A stretch of 64,000 nt of DNA from Methanococcus aeolicus Nankai-3 (GTDB lineage: Archaea; AGJL01; Methanococci; Methanococcales; Methanococcaceae). The notes beneath the pieces were generated by a model. The model saw nothing but the letters and a program-made list of their open reading frames with translations, searched no databases and was not told the DNA's origin. This document shows positions 17,930 through 60,940 of this stretch, piece by piece. Positions within the stretch are counted from its first letter, which is position 1; the number at the start of each line of letters is the position of its first letter. The DNA lies in the NCBI RefSeq assembly GCF_000017185.1, contig NC_009635.1, forward strand, positions 622,563 to 686,562, read 5' to 3'. Made by a program: the position numbers and the translations under genes.

Positions 17930-19135
17930 TTATTTATTTTTATTTTTCACAGATTCATATATTGAAGCTTGTAATCCATGGAATTTAACAGCCCCTATTG
18001 TTTCTCTTTGGTCTATTTCTTTATCCTCAAATGAAACTAATTCTTGGCTAAATAGTGCATAATTGCTTTCTTTTCCTACAACTCTGATTGAACCAGCATA
18101 TAATTTTACAACCACTTTTCCACTTACTCTTTCCTGTGTTTTATCAATGAAAGCATCTAAATCCAACCTAAGTGGTTCATGCCATAATCCTTTATATATT
18201 AAATCTGCATAAGTGGAATCTACTATTTCTTTAAATTTAATCTCTTCTCTGGTTAGTGTTAATTGTTCAAGTGCCTTATGTGCCGTAATAAGCATTATAG
18301 CCCCCGGACATTCGTAGTTTTCTCTTGATTTTAATCCTAAAATCCTATCCTCAATTATATCTACTCTACCTACCCCATTTCTTCCAGCAATTTTATTAGC
18401 TTCCCTTATTAATTCCACTGCATCATATTCTTTATTATTTATTTTTACCGGAATACCATTTTCAAATTCTATCTCAACATATTCTGGCCCTGTGCATTCC
18501 ATTGGATTTTTAGTCCAACCATAAGCTTCCTCTGGTGTTTCAAACATTGGGTCTTCTAATTCTCCCCCCTCCACACTTCTTCCCCAAAGGTTTTCGTCAA
18601 TACTATATTTTTTGCTTTCTGTTGGGATTGGTATTCCGTGTTTTTTAGCATATTCTATTTCTTCACTTCTTGTAAGGTTTAAATCCCTAATTGGAGCAAT
18701 TATTTTAACTTCTGGTGCTTTTGCCCTCATAATTGATTCAAATCTAAATTGGTCATTTCCTTTTCCGGTGCAACCATGAGATATTGCCTCTGCATTTAAT
18801 TCTTTTGCCAATTCTACTAATTTTAAACCTATAAGGGGTCTTGCAAGTGCTGTTGATAGTGGGTATCCTTCATATATTGCATTTGCTTTAATTGCTCTGA
18901 ATATATATTCTTTTGCAAATTCCTCCTTAGCATCTATGGTATAATGGGCAAATACTCCGTATTCTTTTGCTTTTTCCACTGGTTTTGTTATTTCCTCCTC
19001 TGGTTGTCCCACATCTACACAGGCAGTTACTACCTTATAATTATAATTTTCTTCCAATAGTTTTAAACAACAACTTGTGTCTAATCCACCAGAATATGCC
19101 AAAACTGCTATTTTTTCTTTGTTTTCGTTTGTCAT
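17930..19135 (-). CDS. argG: Argininosuccinate synthase
   Basis: ATP-dependent joining of citrulline and aspartate in arginine biosynthesis, 401 aa, normal length. The PP-loop [11 protein letters not shown] is at residues 13-23. The conserved [15 protein letters not shown] block binds substrate and ATP. GATG-type ribosome-binding sequence lies before the ATG (GGTGAGATAATG). argD, another arginine gene, lies in this window at 34.8 kb but is not linked to it. Unusually for this window the gene contains no GGAGCTCC palindrome. A 21-nt perfect hairpin lies just upstream (19187-19207). Confidence 0.96.
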
Positions 19136-48426: not shown

Positions 48427-50862
48427 ATGCTTTTAGATATTGATTATAATTCAAAAGAAAACCGTATTTATATATATACTACAAAGAAAATAATTAAAAA
48501 AGATTTTAAACCATATTTATACATAGATGCCGATAAAAATACCATAAATAAGTTTATAGATGAGGAAGAACCACAACTTAAAGAATATATAACGGCAATA
48601 GAAAGAGTAAAAAAAATTATTATAAATTTAAATGACATTGAAAATCCATATAAAAATAGGACAGTAGAAAAGACTTTATCAAAAATAACAACAGACCACC
48701 CCAAAGACATTCCAAAATTACGAAAATTGCAAAAAATAAAGGCTAATCAGAGATTAGCCAATTTTCCCAATGGGAAAATAGGAACAACCTACGAACATGA
48801 CATTCCATTTACAAAACGGTATTTAATTGATAATAATAAAAATATTGATTTATTAAATTATAATAATATACCAGATTTAAAAGCCGTATCTTTTGATATG
48901 GAGGTGCATTTTAAAGATAGGGAGCCAGAACCTGAAAAAGATGCCATATTAATGACAAGTTTTTACTCACACGATAAAAAAATAAATAAAAAAATAAAAA
49001 AAGTAATTACCTACAAACCATTTGAGCATGAAAGCGTTGAAATTGTAAAGGACGAAAAGGAATTAATTAAAAAAACCATGGAGCTCCTAAAACAATATAA
49101 TATAATATACACCTACAACGGAGATAATTTTGATTTCCCATATTTAAAAAGACGGGCAGAACATTTAAAAATACCATTAAATTTTGGAGAAAATCATAAA
49201 TTAAAATTATCAAAAGGGGGCATGAATTTAAAAAGTGCAATTTCTGGAATTGTGCATATTGACCTTTACCCCATAGCAAGAAGAACCTTAAATTTAACCA
49301 AATATAAATTAGAAGATGTTTCAAAAGAATTATTTAACATAGAAAAATTAGAGGTTGGACATCATAATATAGTGCCACTATGGAACAATAATAACCCCAA
49401 ATTAGTAGAATACTCACTCCAAGATGCAGAATATACATATAAAATAGGGGAATATTTTTTGCCATTAGAAATTATGTTTTCAAATATTGTTGGCCAATGT
49501 TTATTTGATATAAGTAGAATGAGTAGTAGCAATATGGTAGAATATCTACTTTTAAAGCATTCATTCAATAAAAATTATTTGGCACCAAATAGACCTTATG
49601 GCAATGAATACCAAAACAGATTAAAAGAAGGTTATGAGGGAGGATATGTAAAAGAGCCCATAAAAGGCATGCATGATAACATAGTTAGCATGGATTTCAG
49701 AGCTCTATATCCATCTATAATAATAAGCTATAATATAAGCCCCGATACAATAAACTGCCCTTGTTGTGGTGATACCAACGATAAAATATTGGGTTATTGG
49801 TTCTGTAAAAAAAAGATAGGTATTATACCTGAAATTCTAAAAGATTTAATTGAAAGAAGGAAAAATATTAAAGATGTTTTAAAAAATAAAAATACAACAG
49901 AGAATAATAAAGACGATAATAACAAAAACAACAACGAAAATTATAAATTATTAAATTATGAACAACAATCAATAAAAATTTTAGCAAATTCATTCTATGG
50001 TTATATGGCTTATCCGCGGGCAAGATGGTATTCCAAAGAATGTGCCGAAGTAATTACTCATTTAGGTAGGGCATATATACGAAAAACAATAGAGGAAGCG
50101 GAAAATAACGGATTTAATGTAATATATGCAGATACTGACGGATTATATGCGATATTAGACGAAAATAAAAATAAAAATACAAATAAAGAAAATATATTAA
50201 ATAAAACCATCAAATTTTTAAATGAAATAAACAGGGAGCTCCCCGAAAAGATGGAGCTCGAATTTGAAGGATACTACAAAAGAGGTATATTCATAACTAA
50301 AAAAAGATATGCCTTAATTGATGAAAACAATAAAATTATAGTAAAAGGTTTGGAATTTGTAAGAAGGGATTGGTCAAATATAGCCAAAAAAACCCAAAAA
50401 AAAGTATTAAATACACTTTTAAAAGAAGGAGATGTAGAAACTGCAAAACAGATTATTAAAGATACAATAAATGATTTAAAAAATCTACCCCAATCGAAGA
50501 TTGGTGAATCCCCGGGGGGAGATAAAAAAATAAACCCCAAAGATTTAATAATATATAAACAACTAACAAAAGATATTAGCGAATATTCCACAGCCACACC
50601 CCACATAGCAGTTGCCAAAAAAATGAGAGACAGAGGAGATAGGTTAAAAATCGGTGATGTAATTGGTTTCGTAATTGTAAATGGGAGCTCCCCAATAAGT
50701 GAAAGGGCTACCATCCCAGAACAAGCCACCAACTACGATGCAAATTATTATATTGATAATCAGGTGCTACCCCCAGTATTAAGAATTATGGAAGCTATTG
50801 GAATTACCAAAGATGAGCTAAAAAACAATAATAAACAAATTACACTTGATAATTTCTTTTAA
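48427..50862 (+). CDS. DNA polymerase family B (intein-free)
   Basis: An 811-aa replicative/repair DNA polymerase with 3'-5' exonuclease. Exo motifs: SFDMEVHF (Exo I), YNGDNFDFPYLKRR (Exo II) and YSLQDAEYTYKIG (Exo III). Polymerase motifs: SMDFRALYPSIIISYNISPD (A), LANSFYGYMAYPRARW (B) and YADTDGLYAI (C). The M. jannaschii orthologue carries inteins, while here the same motifs are uninterrupted. An Asn/Lys-rich loop (about 30 residues, before LLNYEQQS) separates motifs A and B. Two tandem perfect hairpins lie inside the coding region at 48741-48779. ATG follows GGTGTTATC. Confidence 0.95.
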   Translation: MLLDIDYNSKENRIYIYTTKKIIKKDFKPYLYIDADKNTINKFIDEEEPQLKEYITAIERVKKIIINLNDIENPYKNRTVEKTLSKITTDHPKDIPKLRKLQKIKANQRLANFPNGKIGTTYEHDIPFTKRYLIDNNKNIDLLNYNNIPDLKAVSFDMEVHFKDREPEPEKDAILMTSFYSHDKKINKKIKKVITYKPFEHESVEIVKDEKELIKKTMELLKQYNIIYTYNGDNFDFPYLKRRAEHLKIPLNFGENHKLKLSKGGMNLKSAISGIVHIDLYPIARRTLNLTKYKLEDVSKELFNIEKLEVGHHNIVPLWNNNNPKLVEYSLQDAEYTYKIGEYFLPLEIMFSNIVGQCLFDISRMSSSNMVEYLLLKHSFNKNYLAPNRPYGNEYQNRLKEGYEGGYVKEPIKGMHDNIVSMDFRALYPSIIISYNISPDTINCPCCGDTNDKILGYWFCKKKIGIIPEILKDLIERRKNIKDVLKNKNTTENNKDDNNKNNNENYKLLNYEQQSIKILANSFYGYMAYPRARWYSKECAEVITHLGRAYIRKTIEEAENNGFNVIYADTDGLYAILDENKNKNTNKENILNKTIKFLNEINRELPEKMELEFEGYYKRGIFITKKRYALIDENNKIIVKGLEFVRRDWSNIAKKTQKKVLNTLLKEGDVETAKQIIKDTINDLKNLPQSKIGESPGGDKKINPKDLIIYKQLTKDISEYSTATPHIAVAKKMRDRGDRLKIGDVIGFVIVNGSSPISERATIPEQATNYDANYYIDNQVLPPVLRIMEAIGITKDELKNNNKQITLDNFF
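48741..48779. repeat. Twin perfect triloop hairpins inside polB
   Basis: Two 19-nt perfect palindromes in succession: arms GGCTAATC/GATTAGCC with loop AGA (48741-48759), and ATTTTCCC/GGGAAAAT with loop AAT (48761-48779). They code for ANQRLANFPNGK in the N-terminal domain. Confidence 0.8.
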
Positions 50863-50911
50863 ATAATTATATTATAAAATGTCCTGTATTAAAAAATAAA
50901 TATAAAATTAT

Positions 50912-51055
50912 CGTGATATTATCCGATGAATTTCACTTCGTGAAAATTCATTACTAATATCACCTAAAAATAAAAAAATCGGTGATATTATCTGCTAAAA
51001 ATCACAGATTTTTAGACTAATATCACCTAAAAATAAAAAAATCGGTGATATTATG
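50912..51055 (+). promoter_or_regulatory. Duplicated, self-complementary leader of dadD
   Basis: A 38-bp direct repeat lies at 50955-50992 and 51018-51055, and a third, partial unit (CGTGATATTAT) at 50912. Each unit brings GGTGATATTAT, the ribosome-binding site and start context of dadD, and its inverse TAATATCACC. GGTGATATTA (50981-50990) and TAATATCACC (51018-51027) form a 10-bp stem that contains a second perfect hairpin (arms CTAAAAATC/GATTTTTAG, 50995-51015). The real RBS at 51044-51049 can pair with the same TAATATCACC. Confidence 0.8.
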
Positions 51056-52324
51056 ACAATATTAATAACAAATCTATCCTATTCAATAGATAATAATTTA
51101 AATGTATATAAAGATGTAGATATTTTAATAGATAATAACAATATAAAAATCGGAAAATTTTTAATGGAAAAAGAAAATATAAACCAAAAAGATTTAAAAA
51201 TAATAGATGGAAAAAATAAATGTGCCATGCCTGGATTGACAAATACTCACACCCACATACCAATGACATTATTAAGGGGCATCTCCGACGATATGATTTT
51301 ACAGGATTGGCTAAAAGAAAAAATATGGGTAAATGAGGCCAAACTCACAAAAGAAGCCGTTTATTATGGTTCATTGTTGGGCTGTCTTGAAATGTTAAGA
51401 TTTGGAATTACTTCATTTAATGATATGTATTTTTTCAGTGAAGAAATATTAAAAGCCACAAAAGAAATTGGATTAAAGGGAACAATTTGCTATCCAATAA
51501 TTGATTTTGGAACTCCTGAACATGACAATTTAGATAAATTATTAAATGGTGCGGAGAACTTTATAAAAAAATATAAAGACGAAAAAACCGTTAAACCTGC
51601 AATAGCTCCACATGCTCCATATACATGTTCAGAAAACACATATATAAAATGTAAAGAAATAGCAAATAAATATAATACGATTTTACACACCCACATATCA
51701 GAAACTAGATATGAAGTGGTGGAAATGGAAAATAATAAAAATATAAGGCCTGTGGATTATTTAAATAACCTAAATATATTGGATAAAAATACAATTGTAG
51801 CACATTGTGTATGGATTACAAAAGACGAAGCAAAAACATTGGCAAAAACAGAAACAAAAATATCCCACTGCTCAACAAGTAATATGAAGCTGGCAAGTGG
51901 TGGAGTTATGCCATTGGTGGAGCTCCTTCAACACGGCGCAAATATATCACTTGGAACCGATGGTGTAGCAAGTAATAATAATATGGACATATTGGAACAA
52001 ATGAAAATAACTTCATTACTACATAAAGCCCATAGATGGGACCCAACAGTAGCCGACATAGATACAGTTTTAAAAATGGGAATTAATAGCCAATCTATTG
52101 GATTTGAAAATAATGATATTATATTAATTGATTTGGGAGCTCCACATATGCGACCAATACATAACATAAAATCAAATATAGTTTATTCTGCAAATGGAAA
52201 TGATGTTGATACAGTAATTGTTAATGGAAAAATATTGATGGAAAATAAAAAATTCATATTTGAAGATGCAGTTATAAATAATATATATAATAAAGTAAAT
52301 AAGATAGTAGAAAAATTTATTTAA
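51053..52324 (+). CDS. dadD: 5'-deoxyadenosine / SAH / MTA deaminase DadD
   Basis: A 423-aa metal-dependent amidohydrolase (MJ1541 type) that deaminates 5'-deoxyadenosine, S-adenosylhomocysteine and related nucleosides, the archaeal way to recycle SAM by-products. Metal ligands: LTNTHTHIPMTLL (HxH), TILHTHISETRYE (His), AHCVWI (His) and LGTDGVASNNNMD (Asp). Length as expected. Its leader is duplicated and can mask the ribosome-binding site (see that entry). The PHP gene follows 18 nt after the stop, indicating an operon. Confidence 0.93.
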   Translation: MTILITNLSYSIDNNLNVYKDVDILIDNNNIKIGKFLMEKENINQKDLKIIDGKNKCAMPGLTNTHTHIPMTLLRGISDDMILQDWLKEKIWVNEAKLTKEAVYYGSLLGCLEMLRFGITSFNDMYFFSEEILKATKEIGLKGTICYPIIDFGTPEHDNLDKLLNGAENFIKKYKDEKTVKPAIAPHAPYTCSENTYIKCKEIANKYNTILHTHISETRYEVVEMENNKNIRPVDYLNNLNILDKNTIVAHCVWITKDEAKTLAKTETKISHCSTSNMKLASGGVMPLVELLQHGANISLGTDGVASNNNMDILEQMKITSLLHKAHRWDPTVADIDTVLKMGINSQSIGFENNDIILIDLGAPHMRPIHNIKSNIVYSANGNDVDTVIVNGKILMENKKFIFEDAVINNIYNKVNKIVEKFI

Positions 52325-58791: not shown

Positions 58792-59520
58792 ATGGAAAAA
58801 ATGGAAAATATAAAGAATAATAAAATAAACGAAATAAAAGACATTGAAAATTTACGCCTAACTTCTGGAAAAATAATAAATAAAAATGTTCATCAAATTG
58901 GCATAATTGCATTAGGTTCATATTTGGAAAATCATGGCACAGTTCTTCCAATTGATACGGATATAAAAATAGCCTCATATATTGCCTTAAATGTAGCAAT
59001 ACAAACAGGGGCAAAGTTTTTAGGCTGTGTGCTACCCTCTACGGAGTACGAATATGTTAAACATGGAATACATAACACACCAAATGAAGTAGTTGAATAT
59101 ATTGACTTTTTAGTGGAACAAGGTAAAAAAATAGGCATAAATAAATTTCTAATAATAAATTGTCATGGTGGGAATACCCTAATAAATGAATTAATAGAGG
59201 AGCTCCCATATAAATCAGATATTAAATTAAAAATAAAAAATATAACGAGTACCCATGCATCAACAGAAGAACTATCCGTTGGATATGTTATAGGAATAGC
59301 CGATAAAAGCAAATTAAAAGAACATAATCCAAAAGATTATCCTGAAATAGCAATGATAGGACTAACAGAAGCTAGGAAAAATAATAAATATATTGATAAT
59401 GAAGCTAAAATAGCCGAAAAAAAAGGTATAACTATTAATGAGGATTTGGGAAATAAAATATTAAAAAACGCAATTAACGAATGTATTTTAGAGGTAGAAT
59501 TATTACTAAATAATAAATAA
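58792..59520 (+). CDS. arfB: ArfB: FAPy nucleotide deformylase
   Basis: A 242-aa creatininase-fold protein (MJ0116 type), hydrolysing the formamide of 2-amino-5-formylamino-6-ribosylaminopyrimidinone 5'-phosphate in F420/riboflavin synthesis. Metal ligands are placed in [16 protein letters not shown] (Glu, His and Asp) and [12 protein letters not shown] (His). [15 protein letters not shown] is also typical. The start at 58792 is not backed by a strong RBS; a TTG at 58780 is possible. Next to the Fic gene, but the operator repeats between suggest separate control. Confidence 0.86.
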
Positions 59521-59539
59521 AATTTTATATCTTATCAAT

Positions 59540-59575
59540 ACTATCAAAATCTATCAATTACTATCAAATTGATAG
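59540..59575 (+). promoter_or_regulatory. Operator repeat 1 upstream of fic
   Basis: A 36-nt sequence repeated exactly at 59588-59623. It contains a perfect 9-bp inverted repeat CTATCAATT / AATTGATAG (59551-59559 and 59567-59575), with a 7-nt spacer. Extra half-sites (TATCAA) occur on its left. It stands just upstream of the TATA-like sequence. Confidence 0.85.
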
Positions 59576-59576
59576 T

Positions 59577-59590
59577 TAATAATATATACT
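59577..59590 (+). promoter_or_regulatory. TATA-like element between the fic operators
   Basis: TAATAATATATACT, in the 12-nt gap between the two 36-nt repeats. A repressor bound at either or both would cover the promoter. Confidence 0.5.
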
Positions 59591-59623
59591 ATCAAAATCT
59601 ATCAATTACTATCAAATTGATAG
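59588..59623 (+). promoter_or_regulatory. Operator repeat 2 upstream of fic
   Basis: Exact copy of the 36-nt repeat. It ends 2 nt before the GGTGA ribosome-binding site (59626-59630), so it would be in the mRNA leader and could also form a hairpin. Confidence 0.85.
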
Positions 59624-59635
59624 ATGGTGAATATT

Positions 59636-60940
59636 ATGAAACTTCCAGAAGTTTTAGAATATACAAAGGAGGACGAAAAAAAAGCATTATATTATTATAA
59701 CGATGAAATTATAGGGTATATTAAAAAATACAATATTATAGAATATATTCATTGGGACAACTTAAAATATAAAAAGGGACTGCCCATTGAACCGAAATAT
59801 CTTTGGATTTTATTAAATATGGATAGAAAAATACATTTTAAAGAGTTAAATTTCCATAATTGGACTTTTAAATATTATATAAATGGTAAAATTCAGCAAT
59901 TTTTAGGGGCGTTTGATAGATTAAAAAATATAGAATTTTCCAAGAAAATAAACGATTTAATTAATGATAAATACAAAATAAATGCAATAATTGAGGAATC
60001 CATAGCATCAAGTCAAATTGAAGGGGCAAAAACAACCACAAAAATGGCAAAAGAAGTTATAAAAAGCGGTAAAAAGCCCAAAAATAATGACGAAATTATG
60101 GTATATAATAACCATGTGGCTATGAAATATATTACAAATGAATTAAAAAATAAAGATTTCACAATTGATGAAATTTTAAAAATACATGATTTAATTTCAA
60201 AAGATTTAATTGAAAATAAATATGTGGGAGAATTTAGAACTATCGATGATGTAATTGTTAAAGACATAAAAACTAACAAAACATTACATATTCCCCCAAA
60301 TCATGAATTAATTGAACCTTTAATAAATGAACTATGTAATTTTGCAAACAATAAAGAGGATAGCACACATCCAATAATTAAAGGAATAATCATCCACTTT
60401 TTGATTGGCTATATTCACCCATTTGTTGATGGGAATGGTAGAACTGCAAGGGCTTTATTTTATTGGTATATGCTGAATAGTAGATATACGATTTTTGAAT
60501 ATTTGAAAGTTTCAGAGTTTATAAATAAATCAAAAGGGAAATATAAAAATTCATATTTATATGTGGAATCCCATAAATGCGATGAATATGAGGGCGATTT
60601 AACTTACTTTATTGGTTATATATTGGATTGTATTGAAAAATCCATAAATAAATTTAATGAGGAACTTAAAGTATTAGAAAACGAATTAAAACATAATAAC
60701 ATATATAATAATTTATTGAATGATTTAAAGAATAATAATTTAAATCTACGACAATTAGGTATTTTAGAGGAAATAATTAAAAATCCTAAAAAGAAATTTA
60801 CTATAAAATATATTGTAAATAGCTATGGTGTAGCATATGCCACGGCAAGAAATGATTTAAATATTTTTGCAGAATTTGGGATACTACAAAAGAAAAAAGC
60901 GGGAAAAGAATTTATATATGTCCCAAATATTGATTTTTGA
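59636..60940 (+). CDS. Fic-domain AMP-transferase with C-terminal winged helix
   Basis: A 434-aa class II Fic protein. The catalytic loop HPFVDGNGRTARALFYW is complete, so it should AMPylate (or otherwise nucleotidylate) a target. The inhibitory helix SSQIEGAKTT in the N-terminal part has the S-x-x-x-E-G pattern, placing it in the self-inhibited class II. The C-terminal ~60 residues (ILEEIIKNPKKKF to the end) resemble a winged helix that could bind DNA. Start at ATG 59636 (GGTGA before). Twin 36-bp operators flank its promoter, so autoregulation is likely. No partner toxin/antitoxin gene was found. Confidence 0.88.
   Translation: MKLPEVLEYTKEDEKKALYYYNDEIIGYIKKYNIIEYIHWDNLKYKKGLPIEPKYLWILLNMDRKIHFKELNFHNWTFKYYINGKIQQFLGAFDRLKNIEFSKKINDLINDKYKINAIIEESIASSQIEGAKTTTKMAKEVIKSGKKPKNNDEIMVYNNHVAMKYITNELKNKDFTIDEILKIHDLISKDLIENKYVGEFRTIDDVIVKDIKTNKTLHIPPNHELIEPLINELCNFANNKEDSTHPIIKGIIIHFLIGYIHPFVDGNGRTARALFYWYMLNSRYTIFEYLKVSEFINKSKGKYKNSYLYVESHKCDEYEGDLTYFIGYILDCIEKSINKFNEELKVLENELKHNNIYNNLLNDLKNNNLNLRQLGILEEIIKNPKKKFTIKYIVNSYGVAYATARNDLNIFAEFGILQKKKAGKEFIYVPNIDF

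Follow-up and report, generated by a model that had tools for sequence, protein, structure and literature searches.

The window, by which we mean the whole 64,000-nucleotide stretch analysed here (G000:C1:622563-686562 of a 1,569,500-bp genome), contains an intergenic stretch bounded on one side by a family-B DNA polymerase gene (48427-50862) and on the other by dadD (51053-52324, forward strand), and two leader cassettes are found within it. The dadD-like product is an amidohydrolase of the 5'-deoxyadenosine/MTA/SAH deaminase family (Pfam Amidohydro_1, 8e-60) that NCBIfam deaminase models match with scores below the model cut-offs. A candidate TATA box, TTATAAAA (50872-50879, forward strand), is proposed from a sequence match only, and a start ~25-30 nt 3' of it would place both cassette units within the 5' UTR.

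A unit is ~63 nt in length and comprises a decoy, which is a copy of the Shine-Dalgarno (SD) sequence, a core hairpin, an anti-SD, an A-rich spacer and the true SD with its ATG; at dadD the order in both units is SD copy, core hairpin, ACTAATATCACC, TAAAAATAAAAAAATC, GGTGATATTAT, and all elements lie on the forward strand. Unit 1 opens with decoy 1, CGTGATATTAT (50912-50922), which differs by a single letter from GGTGATATTAT and which flank alignment indicates is probably the ancestral SD with the AT of the former start codon. It continues with core hairpin 1 (ATGAATTT/AAATTCAT, 50923-50952), anti-SD 1 (TAATATCACC, 50955-50964) and A-rich spacer 1 (TAAAAATAAAAAAATC, 50965-50980). The SD supplied by unit 1 serves as decoy 2 (GGTGATATTAT, 50981-50991) and is followed by core hairpin 2 (CTGCTAAAAATCACAGATTTTTAG, 50992-51015, arms CTAAAAATC/GATTTTTAG), by anti-SD 2 (TAATATCACC, 51018-51027), whose partner is either decoy 2 or the true SD, and by A-rich spacer 2 (51028-51043); both spacers recur in other family copies. 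The true SD GGTGAT (51044-51049) and the dadD ATG (51053) complete the leader (51044-51055). The second half of each unit corresponds to an exact direct repeat of 39 bp (50953-50991 and 51016-51054, 100% identical, spacing 63). A preliminary description of this DNA had reported a direct repeat and mutually exclusive pairings directly 5' of dadD, and both are found; the repeat is one base pair longer than the 38 bp given there, and the decoys are as described except that decoy 1 reads CGTGAT and not GGTGAT.

The RNA fold of positions 50905-51075 has a z of -7.4, with 0 of 200 shuffles as stable, and the dadD leader is the most structured (z -7.1) among 1025 leaders, a sample drawn from the window and from four genomes. 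Folded alone, dadD unit 2 is predicted to reach -18.9 kcal/mol with the decoy paired to the anti-SD and the SD free; when the decoy is removed, the anti-SD is predicted to pair with the SD at -10.4 kcal/mol. Decoy:anti-SD pairing with a free SD is the best predicted structure in 8 of the 9 single units folded, the exception being the histidine-phosphatase copy, whose decoy contains a C and whose SD is predicted to be closed. At equilibrium, which is what our predicted accessibility figures describe, the presence of one unit changes SD accessibility by no more than ~20% in 12 of 13 cases (37 °C, 12 coding nucleotides included); in 11 of 13 units the SD becomes at least 100-fold less accessible once the decoy is deleted. 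With the complete unit predicted to be near neutral and loss of its decoy to be strongly inhibitory, blocker and antidote are therefore combined in a single unit. When the RNA folds as it is being transcribed, the pairing of decoy with anti-SD, which lies upstream, should have the advantage. In the full two-unit dadD leader the predicted SD accessibility is 5-10 times or more below that of unit 2 alone, since pairing of core 2 with spacer 1 and decoy 2 can set anti-SD 2 free, and the two tandem copies at dadD may not be neutral.

The dadD units belong to a dispersed family. The pattern TATCACC-N4-32-GGTGATA occurs five times in the 1.57-Mb genome and not once in a reversed control, and searching with the leader locates the unit at the start of three more G000 genes: a pkAB-like gene (encoding a pyruvate-kinase-C-domain protein), a histidine phosphatase gene and ehbP. 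Pattern searches place the cassette in two congeners, at rplX, rps6e and rubredoxin in G015 and at rubredoxin and rps6e in G009. A covariance model finds diverged members at purB and ilvC in G000, where a YchF-type GTPase is matched weakly (E = 0.008). In G015 it adds purB, a YchF-type GTPase and a response regulator whose leader has the unit three times in tandem, and in G009 mtrB and a YchF-type GTPase. Five further leaders in G000 and ten in the two congeners carry the cassette or a close variant, the ilvC, rps6e, rplX and rubredoxin carriers having been identified by eye from sequence. All 19 matches at E <= 5e-4 in G000, G009 and G015 end at SD+ATG or sit in a tandem array that does. The order-wide covariance-model search covered 36 genomes, to which a search at phylum level added none, and in the 33 besides these three it returns weak matches only, those in Methanocaldococcaceae and other Methanococcaceae genera being unconvincing. 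One match in G023 (E = 7e-5) was rejected, its upstream arm falling inside the preceding gene.

Searched for apart from the element, the core hairpin occurs in G000 only inside four of these elements, and core and spacer are near-identical at unrelated loci. Across four genomes, each sampled over ~400 kb, a sequence-independent scan of gene starts for nearby SD complements gives no excess over controls except for family members, exact SD complements away from family leaders being at the control level. At mtrB, inside the mtr operon, and at the pkAB-like gene the cassette lies between closely spaced genes, a location that suits a role at the RNA level.

The letters of the SD vary by gene (GGTGATATT, GGTGATAAT, GGTGATAAC, GGTGAAATT, CGTGATAAC), usually with matching changes in decoy and complement. 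Across loci, 140 of 150 decoy:anti-SD and 135 of 150 SD:anti-SD positions are paired, neither value being reached in 20,000 permutations, and the set is biased toward SD:anti-SD pairing since early family members were found by patterns requiring it. Collapsing identical triplets leaves 0 (decoy:anti-SD) and 5 (SD:anti-SD) of 20,000 permutations at or above what is observed. In the model alignment 10 pairs are changed on both sides, with 41 double-change cells compared with a shuffled mean of 14 (0/500). The decoy, anti-SD and SD covary across unrelated genes, and they form mutually exclusive structures, the latter as had been anticipated for dadD; the leaders possess the two exclusive covarying helices of an SD/anti-SD translational switch. 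The units also share a conserved UCUG/AC internal loop. Departures from pairing are found in the G009 rubredoxin unit, where both direct copies read ACT and the complement still matches ATT, and at rps6e in both species, where the true SD no longer fully matches and the decoy is still paired. As a test of selection on the RNA strand, G-U mismatches number 11 and A-C mismatches 7, too slight an excess to establish such selection.

Orthologues that lack the cassette exist for dadD, ehbP, purB (in G009), ilvC, the response regulator, rplX, rps6e and rubredoxin. The comparison of dadD leaders among relatives that the preliminary description proposed finds the cassette absent from the orthologues in G009, G014, G015, L031 and L032, and it is not conserved with the gene. 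The empty G015 dadD leader, AAATTTTAGTGATAATATG, aligns better to the 28-nt flank of decoy 1 (score 15) than to the flank of the true SD (9.5), and at purB 64-66 nt separate a conserved upstream block from the decoy or the native start. From these dadD and purB alignments, the upstream copy probably represents the former SD, with the cassette having entered between the AT and the G of the start codon. The flank test is mixed elsewhere: rplX compared with G000 favours the opposite reading, and the A-richness of several other loci prevents a decision. As a repeat, the SD-ATG sequence is common in its own right: of the starts sampled, 5 of 436 in G000 and 11 of 419 in G009 have GGTGATATTATG, and we infer that it offers homology for spread of the cassette. 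Of the inverted ends and constant-length target duplication that mark a MITE, inverted copies are present, and the direct repeats vary from ~11 to 23 nt in length and are imperfect at some loci.

We lean, with modest confidence, towards a reading in which the dadD leader consists of two tandem copies of a dispersed start-codon cassette that provides a new SD together with a self-neutralised anti-SD and is ON by default. The cassette would insert between the AT and the G of a start codon, contributing the core hairpin, the SD complement, the A-rich spacer and a fresh SD by which the start is restored, and the old SD would stay upstream as the decoy. In the mRNA of the cell the decoy would pair first with the complement, leaving the new SD free and translation on by default; the complement would block the SD only when the decoy is missing, mutated or occupied, and a regulated OFF state is possible. 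Spread would probably proceed via SD-ATG homology, and template switching or gene conversion could keep the three SD-related copies alike. More tentatively, and with some reserve on our part, the cassette might represent a new class of archaeal start-codon element that spreads by SD homology, supplies a fresh ribosome-binding site, carries a blocker along with its antidote (the old SD) and can stack into arrays, giving rise to latent translational switches. The cassettes would then offer archaea a natural supply of ready-made elements for translational control, and would illustrate how a start codon can survive an insertion, by way of a replaced SD and a neutralised blocking strand. The three genomes offer both filled and empty orthologous sites, so that origin, spread and effect on translation are testable in methanogens.

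A translational switch, in which a signal (a protein, a small RNA, a ligand or a decoy-bound ribosome) releases the anti-SD, which then closes the true SD across a small regulon, would account for the three-way covariation, the conservation of the UCUG/AC loop and the G-U changes between rps6e orthologues that preserve pairing. It also agrees with the decoy mutation of the histidine-phosphatase copy, which flips the predicted state to SD closed, and with the MLKITDF* reading frame behind the decoy in two copies. We nevertheless consider it rather unlikely: the carriers have no obvious common pathway, many of their orthologues are devoid of the cassette, the closed state is the less stable one in most copies and no known riboswitch is matched in Rfam. 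A switch specific to dadD that senses heat or a SAM-derived ligand, as suggested in the preliminary description, is highly improbable. The strongly structured leader is compatible with it, but unrelated genes carry the cassette, and an Rfam scan of 50400-51400 at E <= 1 returns no match, SAM/SAH-type aptamer families included. Nothing ties the cassette to SAM chemistry, because the genes behind the other copies are functionally unrelated and dadD is found elsewhere without it. Nor is heat predicted to open the SD through the element as in an RNA thermometer; SD accessibility with the unit tracks the unit-free value in predictions from 37 to 60 °C.

A purely mutational footprint, with DNA template switching at hairpins around SDs leaving functionless direct and inverted copies, has in its favour that such hairpins do arise by template switching (PMC8794818), that the central loop is inverted between the rplX and rps6e copies and that the direct copies of the G009 rubredoxin unit share a C unmatched by the inverted copy. 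However, near-identical cores and spacers at unrelated loci need spread beyond local switching, and every good match sits at a start codon, and we regard this explanation as improbable. A local, hairpin-induced duplication accident alone, also raised for dadD at the outset, leaves the dispersal over unrelated genes unexplained.

In translational leaders with SD/anti-SD/anti-anti-SD pairing, exclusive hairpins set the availability of the SD. The start-codon cassette resembles these leaders in that exclusive hairpins decide access to the SD, but the cassette has a copy of the SD itself as its anti-anti-SD, occurs dispersed and in tandem repeats, and shows no sensor domain. Template switching produces RNA hairpins (PMC8794818) that share with the cassette both reverse-complement copies and concerted arm changes; unlike them, the cassette also spreads between loci and ends at the start codon. 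In Beggiatoaceae, TAACTGA repeats precede the start codons of unrelated genes, ribosomal protein genes included, and have been proposed to act in translation (PMC4679880). These repeats are likewise short and lie a few nucleotides upstream of such genes, but they are heptamer direct repeats, whereas the cassette is a hairpin that includes an SD together with its complement. MITE and REP palindromes are similarly short and dispersed, with near-terminal inverted repeats; in contrast, the cassette occurs only at SD+ATG, in one orientation, and its outer repeat matches the host SD. The extragenic insertion at large, untied to starts, of REP elements is not seen among the 19 matches in G000, G009 and G015 (E <= 5e-4). 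The cassette appears to be undescribed so far; no published description was found in the literature searched, in which subscription journals are thinly covered, and its novelty is provisional.

Some further features of individual leaders are worth recording. In L020 and L021 the decoy is followed by a seven-codon frame, ATG CTA AAA ATC ACA GAT TTT TAG (MLKITDF*), and the start of the corresponding frame in dadD unit 2 reads CTG. L167, L169 and L177, the leaders of the YchF-type GTPase (G009, G019) and of purB (G015), contain a nearly identical block, ...ATACATAAAATCAAAGATTTTATATTTTTTCTCCCGGAGGTCGAAAAAAT, which ends in the start codon in G019 and is followed by a further unit in G009 and G015. 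Between rplX and rps6e (L025, L029), the loop CCGACTAAGG of the former and CCTTAGTCGG of the latter are exact reverse complements, an inversion inside the hairpin.

Among other leaders, the argG-like leader of the window (minus strand, A of ATG at 19135, ~110 nt upstream) reads GGTGAAGTAAATC...GATTTACTAAACC-AAAAAAAGAA-ATGGTGAGATAATG; it forms an SD-copy hairpin like that of the cassette, with additional nested hairpins within the core, and may be a decayed relative. L234, the leader of an ORF from 6197 (+) in G019, which belongs to another genus, contains two tandem GGTGATTG...AGCTCACC hairpins and then TCATTTCATTC and GGTGATATCATG, an architecture similar to that of the cassette in different letters. 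In the window at 59500-59650, an ORF that begins at 59636 has repeated ATCTATCAATTACTATCAAATTGATAG palindromes directly 5' of its SD, and the palindrome GGAGCTCC is recurrent in G000 leaders (L178, L179, L190 and other sampled leaders).
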